Below are positions 23,546-24,993 of a stretch of DNA of 64,000 bases, one piece after another. Every line of letters begins with the position of its first letter. The stretch's first letter is position 1. The translations under genes and the position numbers were made by a program. The DNA comes from Solirubrobacter deserti. Its GTDB lineage: Bacteria; Actinomycetota; Thermoleophilia; Solirubrobacterales; Solirubrobacteraceae. The stretch lies in assembly GCF_003344625.1 (NCBI RefSeq), contig NZ_QPKJ02000008.1, forward strand, positions 108,527 through 172,526, given 5' to 3'. The notes under the pieces were generated by a model. The model worked only from the letters and a program-made list of their open reading frames with translations. It ran no database searches and was not told where the DNA came from.

Positions 23546-24115
23546 TCAGCACTTGACCTTCGTGTCGTAGTACATGACGCAGAAGACCTTGCGGCCCTTG
23601 TAGCAGTAGCCCGTGAGCGCCTTGTCGCCGTTGATGCGGTTGCGCATGGTGCCGCAGCAGTCGACGAGCTTGCGCACGCGGCCGCCGCAGCAGCGGTACC
23701 AGGCGCCGTCGACGTGGGGCTTGAAGCCGTACACCGCGGCCGTCGCCGTGCACACGGCGGTGCGCGTCGCCTGCGGGAGGCGCGCGCCGTCGGCGTCGGT
23801 GAGCGGCGCGCCGTCGTCGTCGACCGGGAGGCCCTGGGCGTCCACGTAGCGGCCGAGGTCGTCGACCGGACGGCCGTTCTTGGCGCGGATCGGGAAGCCC
23901 TTGCTGTCGATCCGCGGCAGGCCCGTCGGGTGCGGGCAGGAGTCCGTCGTGTAGATGTGACCGCAGAAGTGGTAGGCCTCGGCCTCGCCCGGGGTGACGA
24001 GGGAGCCGATGGTCTTCGCGCCCGTGACGCCCATCACGGCCGCGCCGACCCGCGCGAGGAAGCCGCGCCGCGAGCTCTGCGCCGCAACCCCGTCCGCCAG
24101 CTTGCCGCCGTTCAT
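23546..24115 (-). CDS. Methylamine dehydrogenase light-chain-like (MauA-like) Tat-exported Cys-rich protein
   Basis: 189 residues. Tat leader SSRRGFLARVGAAVMG (Arg16-Arg17). The mature part has ten cysteines. The C-terminal half WYRCCGG, VDCCG, GYCYKGRKVFC lines up by eye with the RDCCGY, CPCL, IWCFGAEDDAMTYHC pattern of MauA. The two tryptophans of MauA that form the TTQ cofactor appear replaced: TTQ Trp57 falls in ATRTAVC and Trp108 aligns with Tyr in LTGYCY; the one tryptophan (GAWYRCC) is elsewhere. A 50-residue acidic insert of repeated GRPVDD/GLPVDDDG units follows the CPHPTG segment. The ATG overlaps the MauE-MauD gene stop (ATGA). Confidence 0.7.
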   Translation of the reverse strand: MNGGKLADGVAAQSSRRGFLARVGAAVMGVTGAKTIGSLVTPGEAEAYHFCGHIYTTDSCPHPTGLPRIDSKGFPIRAKNGRPVDDLGRYVDAQGLPVDDDGAPLTDADGARLPQATRTAVCTATAAVYGFKPHVDGAWYRCCGGRVRKLVDCCGTMRNRINGDKALTGYCYKGRKVFCVMYYDTKVKC

Positions 24116-24993
24116 GCGCGCACCATCCGCTGCCGCCGCTCCGCCGCGTGCAGCACGGACTCCAGCTGCGCGCCGGTGTTGAACGTGCCCTTAGACAGCA
24201 CCGTGCCGTCTGCGTCGAGCGTCACCGCGAACGGGCTGCCGGGCACGTCCGCCGCCGCCCAGGCCTGCGCGTGCTCGACCTCGTCGAAGGTCTGCAGAGC
24301 GATCGCGTGGTGGCGGCCGAACGCGTCGATCTGCGGCTTGAGCGCGCGGCACAGGCCGCAGCCCTCCGACGTGAACACGGCGAGGCCGATCTGGCCGGGC
24401 GCGAGCGCGTGGAAGTCCTGCGCGAGCGGGCTGTGCGCGCCGACCTCCGGGCCTTCGTGCGCGACTTCGAGCGCGCCCTGCGGGGCGACCGAGAGCCGCA
24501 GCATCCCGACCTCACGCGCGAGCGCGAGCACCACGACCGTGAGCGCCGCCAGGCCGAGGAGCGCGGCCGCCAACCCGATCGCGAGCCACTCCTCGGTGGT
24601 CGGCGTGCGGCGCGGCAGCAGCGGCGCCAGCGCCAGCGCGGCGGCCAGCAGCGCCGTCCGCCCGGCGGAGCGCGTCGAGAGCCGGCCCTTGGCGCCGAAG
24701 CACGCGCACGGCGCCCCGGCCCGGCCGGACGCGAGCGCGGCGATCTGCGCGGCCGTCGCGGCGCTGAGGAATACGGCCGCCGCCCGGGCCGCGGTGTCGA
24801 GCCCCGCGGCCACGAGCGCGCCGAGCGTGAGCTCGACCGCGATCACGGCTCCCCACGCGGCCGTCATGGCCTGCGGCGAGCGGACGCCGTACGTGGCGAA
24901 CGCCGCCCGCGCGGACGGGCCGCCGGCCGCCTTCAATCCTGCGGCGGCGACCAGCACGAGCCCCAGGACGAGGCAGACCACGACTGACACCAT
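24112..24993 (-). CDS. MauE-like membrane domain fused to MauD-like thioredoxin domain
   Basis: 293 residues from ATG 24993; a TTG at 25017 would add 8 residues. Residues 1-165 contain four or five helices and the MauE/DoxX-type motif ACFGAKGRLS, with CACFG cysteines. After another helix, residues 190-293 form a thioredoxin fold with VFTSEGCGLCRALKP (redox pair Cys-Gly-Leu-Cys), cis-proline in VPGSPFAV and the MauD-like ending GTFNTGAQLESVLHA. In methylamine clusters MauE and MauD are separate proteins needed to form disulfides in MauA. Here they are one polypeptide, coupled to the MauA-like gene by a 4-bp overlap. Confidence 0.8.
   Translation of the reverse strand: MVSVVVCLVLGLVLVAAAGLKAAGGPSARAAFATYGVRSPQAMTAAWGAVIAVELTLGALVAAGLDTAARAAAVFLSAATAAQIAALASGRAGAPCACFGAKGRLSTRSAGRTALLAAALALAPLLPRRTPTTEEWLAIGLAAALLGLAALTVVVLALAREVGMLRLSVAPQGALEVAHEGPEVGAHSPLAQDFHALAPGQIGLAVFTSEGCGLCRALKPQIDAFGRHHAIALQTFDEVEHAQAWAAADVPGSPFAVTLDADGTVLSKGTFNTGAQLESVLHAAERRQRMVRA

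Follow-up and report, generated by a model that had tools for sequence, protein, structure and literature searches.

A conserved Mau-type gene module with a ten-cysteine Tat-signal protein as presumed client in Solirubrobacter deserti, and predicted selenocysteine forms of its MauF in Actinomycetota

The window analysed here, i.e. the whole stretch of 64,000 nucleotides of Solirubrobacter deserti DNA, encodes a three-protein module of the Mau type that consists of a MauE-MauD fusion, a client protein and a MauF homologue fused to a beta-propeller. The module is real and conserved, and represents a MauF-MauE-MauD maturation set with a non-TTQ client that has been condensed through gene fusion. 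MauE, MauD and MauF are members of the gene set of methylamine dehydrogenase (MADH); their joint occurrence with another client detaches the machine from methylamine metabolism and provides a minimal test system. At the sequence level, the identity of the E, D and F parts, their linkage, the ten-cysteine client with its RR and A-x-A motifs, and the exchange between Cys and TGA in MauF relatives are established. As to function, MauE (CxC) and the MauD thioredoxin domain (CxxC) would introduce and rearrange the disulfide bonds of a single ten-cysteine client to which they are dedicated, MauF would supply one further redox cysteine, and the client, once folded, would exit by the Tat route. That the parts constitute one redox-maturation module acting on its dedicated Tat client at the cytoplasmic face, ahead of export, is our preferred reading, to which we give nearly an even chance. 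The features are the following:

24112..24993, minus strand: MauE-MauD fusion; MauE part with four transmembrane (TM) helices and CACFG in the TM3-4 loop, MauD part with TM5 and a thioredoxin domain (CGLC)
24694..24708, minus strand: MauE CxC site CACFG, aa 96-100 (read from the translation)
24349..24360, minus strand: MauD CxxC site CGLC, aa 212-215 (read from the translation)
23546..24115, minus strand: Tat-signal ten-cysteine protein (MauA'), the presumed client (from homologues, motifs and an AF2 model)
24056..24073, minus strand: twin-arginine motif SRRGFL of the client, aa 15-20 (from sequence and homologues)
18481..19902, minus strand: MauF homologue fused to a beta-propeller, third module member (hhalign, blastp)
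19270..19902, minus strand: MauF membrane domain, aa 1-211 (hhalign, alignment)
19834..19845, minus strand: MauF motif SPCG, Cys at aa 22; TGA in many relatives outside the window's branch
18484..19263, minus strand: beta-propeller domain, aa 214-473, predicted to be extracellular

The fusion gene runs from an ATG at 24993 to a stop at 24112 and encodes 293 aa, with VPGSPFAV at aa 250-257 and NTGAQLESVL at aa 272-281. Its MauE part scores above the cut-off of the Pfam MauE model (PF07291; 37 bits, cut-off 27) and matches the MauE profile in hhalign (98.6%), and CACFG corresponds to a CGC in the consensus of six canonical MauE. The MauD part, an anchored thioredoxin domain with a CxxC homologous to that of MauD, matches the MauD profile at 99.9% with 34% identity, but reaches only 46.8 bits with NCBIfam MauD (TIGR02661), under the equivalog cut-off of 188.6; it is therefore a homologue and not an equivalog. 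When E, D or F was paired with a Mau protein other than its own counterpart, hhalign stayed below 2% in every case. A previous sequence-only reading had placed a MauE-type membrane domain and a MauD-type thioredoxin domain in one protein, overlapping the client gene by 4 bp; the two minus-strand ORFs, all the motifs it named and the overlap (24112-24115) were borne out.

That reading considered the two genes to be a free-standing mini-cluster. The pair is real, but the MauF homologue at 18481-19902 had been missed. Compared with four annotated MauF, its membrane part gives an hhalign match of 99.7% with 31% identity, blastp E-values of at most 1e-4 to three of the four (best 3e-10), and both the SPCG and RRxQVP motifs. 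Neither Pfam nor NCBIfam has a model scoring above cut-off, which also holds for two annotated MauF; among the relatives, two match PF13386 (CcdA/DsbD-type) at 21.4 and 22.0 bits, under the cut-off of 24.9. The membrane part is multi-helical, and its Pro-Cys-Gly, which ends the first helix, presumably resembles the corresponding site of the CcdA/DsbD transmembrane thiol carriers. MauF differs from these in having only one invariant Cys, in the TGA found in its relatives and in a Pfam match that is sub-threshold at best.

The neighbourhood survey that the sequence-only reading had called for supports the linkage. In all 16 loci of the genome collection the MauE-MauD part lies directly upstream of the client (as a separate ORF in 11, in one ORF with it in 5). 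Locus L025 (S. deserti CPCC 204708) is 100% identical to the window in each of nine genes compared. MauF is directly adjacent in 12 of these loci, beyond an insertion in 2 and 13 kb away in one (L027); the remaining locus (L035), whose contig ends after the client, was left out for MauF. Within the taxonomic family, 23 of 146 genomes gave client matches, one of them (G111) being dropped because by eye the matching ORF resembles malate dehydrogenase. A close MauF (E < 1e-45) was found in 20 of the 22 client-bearing genomes, the client match of the other two lying at a contig end, and in none of the 124 without a client, where the nearest was a partial match at 2.9e-37 (G120); this threshold was chosen afterwards and the search profile held members of the window's branch, so that the E-value contrast is partly built in. 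A point against the preferred reading is the distance between MauF and the client, which is 3.6 kb in the window's branch and 13 kb in G135.

Moreover, the parts are combined differently across genes. Besides the window's arrangement (E-D / client / F-propeller), E-D-client / F-propeller, E / D / client / F and D / client / F-E were found, so that fusions include E-D-client in one ORF, MauF-MauE and MauF-propeller. Such recombination of parts is a classical sign of proteins that work together. An example of the MauF-MauE fusion, the reverse partner to the window fusion, is L082:5403-6530 (plus strand; the part after the TGA), with proteins of similar length in other f14 loci.

Two further gene pairs occur near the module. 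Between the client gene and mauF, on the opposite strand to the module (20004-23542, plus), lie a phoD-type alkaline phosphatase and a protein with F5/8-type C and NEW3 domains; this insertion is found in part of Solirubrobacter, including L026, and is absent between client and mauF in L028 and L029. Directly upstream of the module, two large proteins (25067-27274 and 27374-29545, minus strand) carry MopE-type putative metal-binding motifs and share a C-terminal domain with paired Cys; homologues are also found upstream in L026, L027 and L028.

The client has 189 aa, cysteines at positions 51, 60, 122, 142, 143, 153, 154, 171, 179 and 189, A-x-A at aa 45-47 and a single Trp (W139). A search of the protein database gave 2293 homologues with E ≤ 1e-3, and in three listed sets of 120 proteins, exactly ten domain cysteines are present in 117 of 118, 101 of 106 and 112 of 113 homologues (respectively 2, 14 and 7 were left out for want of a recognisable domain start or, in the third set, of a thioredoxin motif). 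The ORF is thus not a chance one. In the same listed sets, RRx[FLI] precedes the client domain in 117/118, 105/106 and 113/113. Export by Tat, as previously proposed for this Cys-rich protein, would suit a leader made up of SRRGFL, a hydrophobic stretch and A-x-A, although the Tat model TIGR01409 scores 14.6 bits against a cut-off of 16.7; one relative exceeds it (18.2 bits).

As regards the description of the client as MauA-like, structure prediction yielded a confident folded core (AF2 mean pLDDT 82, block means at least 90 from residue 61 onward), and the best structural matches of the model are TTQ light chains. Sequence and profile comparison with the MauA core, on the other hand, gave no match. 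That is, the window family aligns with MauA at 15.4% over 52 columns with the cysteines unpaired, and at 2.1% in the reverse direction, and MauA likeness by sequence was rejected. Short client relatives do reach 96.7%, but over the Tat leader only (37 columns, extending beyond the RR), and their cores without leaders stay below 2%; likewise, the NCBIfam TTQ light-chain model covers the leader only (13.9 bits). Pfam gave nothing above threshold for the client (only DUF1627 at E 0.22), and a sequence search of the PDB nothing beyond a nanobody at E 0.15.

These structural matches, together with a propeller in the gene set as MauB is in MADH, and one MauG-family gene each in the window's genome (G000) and its species mate G133, would suit a MADH-like quinoenzyme with the client as light chain and the propeller as substitute for the heavy chain. 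We consider this very improbable. The TTQ cofactor is formed by two Trp of the light chain and the window client has one; no match to PF02975 (MauA/TTQ light chain) or PF06433 (MauB heavy chain) was found in G000, while positive controls scored 181 and 185 bits and 702 and 143 bits, respectively, which agrees with the earlier statement that methylamine dehydrogenase genes are absent and leads us to reject the client as a TTQ enzyme. As for MauG, whose co-occurrence had been raised as a question, the G000 gene lies on another contig and four of the five other module-bearing genomes tested have none. The propeller was rejected as a MauB: its hhalign match to MauB is 1.1%, none of 21 members has a Pfam match and a PDB profile search returns only TolB (E 0.56). 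Its best structural matches are Pizza6, fish lectin, PknD, NHL and TolB, with no MauB among the 50 entries listed. Speculatively, the propeller might receive or anchor the exported client outside.

In loci of other actinobacterial families, as well as in the nearer L024, L033 and L039, the interruption of the MauF frame coincides with the SPCG Cys. The interrupting codon was TGA in 18 of 18 cases in a first set and, over all sites read, in 37 of 37 distinct ones. In a phylum sample of 396 genomes, 72 had a MauF-like match and 54 of these a TGA copy (hand count, the TGA position being read at the 37 distinct sites); the 18 others comprise 8 full-length copies without a stop (7 read as Cys, with G277 unread) and 10 partial or weak matches. 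Cys and TGA forms coexist in G017. A true stop followed by a restart was rejected, as the upstream frame aligns with TM1 of the Cys forms, including the invariant G14 and P21, and no site had TAA or TAG.

The region after the UGA was scored with the published bacterial SECIS model of PMC13188914 (loop of 3-9 nt, stem of 4-16 bp, G at loop base 1 or 2, distance of 16-37 nt to the UGA, at most -7.5 kcal/mol). Of 37 TGA forms 32 passed, as opposed to 4 of 24 Cys forms scored at the corresponding position (p = 5e-8, the sequences not being independent); some care is called for, since 37% of synonymous recodings also pass. The most frequent hairpin carries a loop of 3 nt, 33 nt downstream of the UGA, and one of its pairs occurs as G-C, C-G and A-U. 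Compensatory changes are supported in one lineage: in lineage 1 (n = 21) the observed pairing or double changes were reached by none of 500 shuffles; in lineage 2 (n = 16) the shuffle test was not informative. Furthermore, tRNA-Sec (at our own threshold of 58 bits) or SelB (above cut-off) was found in 23 of 24 TGA genomes versus 6 of 13 Cys-only ones (p = 0.001), leaving out G215, in which MauF was not seen and the client is at a contig end. In a second set, SelB was present in 14 of 18 further TGA genomes, whereas none of 3 genomes lacking a stop had it. Both SelB (313 bits) and tRNA-Sec (62.6 bits) are encoded in the window's genome, whose MauF is nevertheless a Cys form. In G434, a Sec-mauF operon has as direct neighbours selA, with 450 bits, and a selB homologue that scores 202 bits against a cut-off of 242 (L162:2191-3693 and 3749-5704, plus strand).

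Judging from these sequence patterns, MauF relatives appear to use selenocysteine at the SPCG Cys, the window copy having Cys, and Sec-MauF would be a predicted selenoprotein family widespread in Actinomycetota, a claim that shares the tentative standing of the joint reading given below. The Cys/Sec exchange marks the SPCG Cys as the likely redox-active residue of MauF, and thus points to the redox-active atom ahead of any experiment. The family is easily missed, since the TGA splits its genes in standard ORF calling and searches of Pfam and NCBIfam yielded no MauF model. Among the titles and abstract beginnings screened in the openly licensed PMC literature, none dealt with selenocysteine in MauF or with MauE-MauD fusions, and MauF is not among the 119 prokaryotic selenoprotein families in Table 1 of PMC13188914 (2026).

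The distant Sec-MauF operons have as neighbour a Tat-signal protein of another kind, whose N-terminal domain is rich in Cys; seven of eight such proteins contain 18-24 cysteines and the eighth, a long ORF, 39. Profile comparisons of these domains with MauA or the window client all gave less than 9%, and LGFP repeats occurred in four of the six large proteins scanned. The machine thus seems, from sequence, to serve several unrelated-looking Cys-rich Tat proteins. The earlier proposal of a dedicated oxidative-folding module with one exported client is partly supported: the linkage is conserved, whereas MauF as third member and the several client types depart from it. Four of these Tat-signal neighbours (L150:8821-10401, L154:4630-6231, L148:2837-4444 and L160:4000-5649) are about 530-550 aa long, contain 18 Cys and carry LGFP repeats; Pfam gave no match to their Cys-rich N-terminal domain. 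Also beside a Sec-MauF, L143:3260-3835 (plus strand) encodes a Tat-signal protein of 192 aa and 22 Cys; its leader contains LPVDRR, like that of MauA, its Trp spacing is TTQ-like, and PF02975 gives no match.

On which side of the membrane the chemistry would take place was assessed from hydropathy windows and charge bias. In the fused E-D proteins (n = 21, triple fusions included) K+R averages 4.6, 0.2, 3.1 and 0.8 in loops 1 to 4, the third containing the CxC, and in six canonical MauE 4.3, 0.3, 4.8 and 0.0. Under the positive-inside rule, such an alternation would mean that the CxC loop faces the cytoplasm and the N-terminus of MauE the exterior. Solitary MauD proteins have the K/R excess after the anchor in 17 of 18 actinobacterial cases (one tie) and in 6 of 6 canonical ones; as a control, the three anchored redoxins of the window's own genome, a small number that counts against the preferred reading, had more K/R before the anchor in two cases and a tie in one.

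In one genus, E, D and client form a single polypeptide. Among the best 120 of 354 matches (8000 scored candidates), which are 368-480 aa long, both the thioredoxin motif and the start of the client could be recognised in 113, and all 113 had RR between thioredoxin and client and A-x-A before the client. Only 3 of the 113 linkers contain a Met; of five linkers read as DNA, three lack ATG, GTG or TTG and two have one GTG, although rare start codons (CTG, ATC) could still yield a separate client. If Tat reads the RR, this motif must be cytoplasmic; the thioredoxin domain directly ahead of it would then be cytoplasmic too, and the client would come to lie outside. Thiol chemistry ahead of Tat export would be the simplest reading of the triple fusions.

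MauD is, however, commonly regarded as extracytoplasmic, and in CcdA/DsbD-type systems the thiol chemistry serves the outside. This convention speaks against the preferred reading and, with the sub-threshold PF13386 matches of MauF described above, for the same module with conventional sidedness, in which E, D and F would oxidise the client outside after Tat export, like a DsbA/DsbB pair with a CcdA-type reductant. We regard that as a serious possibility, if clearly more doubtful than probable; both the charge alternation and the internal RR of the triple fusions point to the opposite side, for which inverted VKOR is a precedent. In our preferred reading, E, D and F would act on the client on the cytoplasmic face, before folded export. 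Its bold part, the folding of Tat cargo there by a Cys/Sec MauF, is a prediction. The full joint reading, that dedicated Tat cargo is folded and given its disulfides at the cytoplasmic face by a natural membrane-bound machine, ahead of export and with one catalytic Cys/Sec in MauF, that MADH is one of its clients, and that Sec-MauF is an undescribed family widespread in Actinomycetota, is tentative and somewhat more apt to fail than to hold. Should the predicted sidedness be right, it would shed light on the way in which Tat, with its preference for folded cargo, copes with proteins that have five or more disulfides.

The proposed order of events resembles CyDisCo (PMC9995818; PMC6708511), in which disulfides form before Tat export; as described in the available parts of these papers, CyDisCo is artificial (Erv1p plus PDI), whereas the set proposed here would be natural, membrane-bound and client-dedicated and, if the sidedness is right, the natural counterpart to engineered cytoplasmic disulfide formation for Tat cargo. 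In favour of the preferred reading, disulfides may be required early by Tat cargo: B. subtilis QcrA with a disulfide bonding defect is described as rapidly degraded in PMC6708511. A membrane thiol-redox protein with a beta-propeller, like MauF-propeller, is Helicobacter pylori DsbI, which is described as DsbB-like and a redox partner of HP0231 in PMC4597128, while the membrane part here is MauF.

With mauFBEDA of the methylotrophs (Paracoccus denitrificans, Methylobacterium) the window shares MauE, MauD and MauF homologues and a Tat-signal Cys-rich protein beside MauD, and the leader of the short clients matches that of MauA past the RR. It differs in the fusion of E to D and of F to a propeller, in the unmatched heavy- and light-chain families and in a client without the two TTQ Trp; many actinobacterial relatives differ additionally in the TGA at the MauF motif Cys. 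MauE and MauD also occur outside methylamine metabolism beside a predicted precursor, as here, in candidate RiPP clusters of Streptomyces (PMC7794033), where their mode of action is described as unclear; the available text of that paper mentions no MauF, E-D or E-D-client fusion, or Tat client. These proposed RiPP genes, and a weak match of one MauE relative to the HvfX family of copper-binding RiPP maturation (18.9 bits, cut-off 80), could mean that E and D modify the client and do not just oxidise it, giving a metal-binding or RiPP-like product by thioether, metal or other Cys chemistry. Such modification is improbable, as the client core is predicted to be folded, its Tat signal suits folded cargo, and no modifying enzyme was seen to recur beside the client when neighbours were compared by similarity to the window genes and by eye.

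Genome G016 (L024) contains both forms of the module, a triple-fusion module with a Cys-MauF and a split module with a TGA-MauF and a short client. By eye, the short-client modules of f8 (L075, L077, L078, L084 and L087) lie near a GroEL-like gene.
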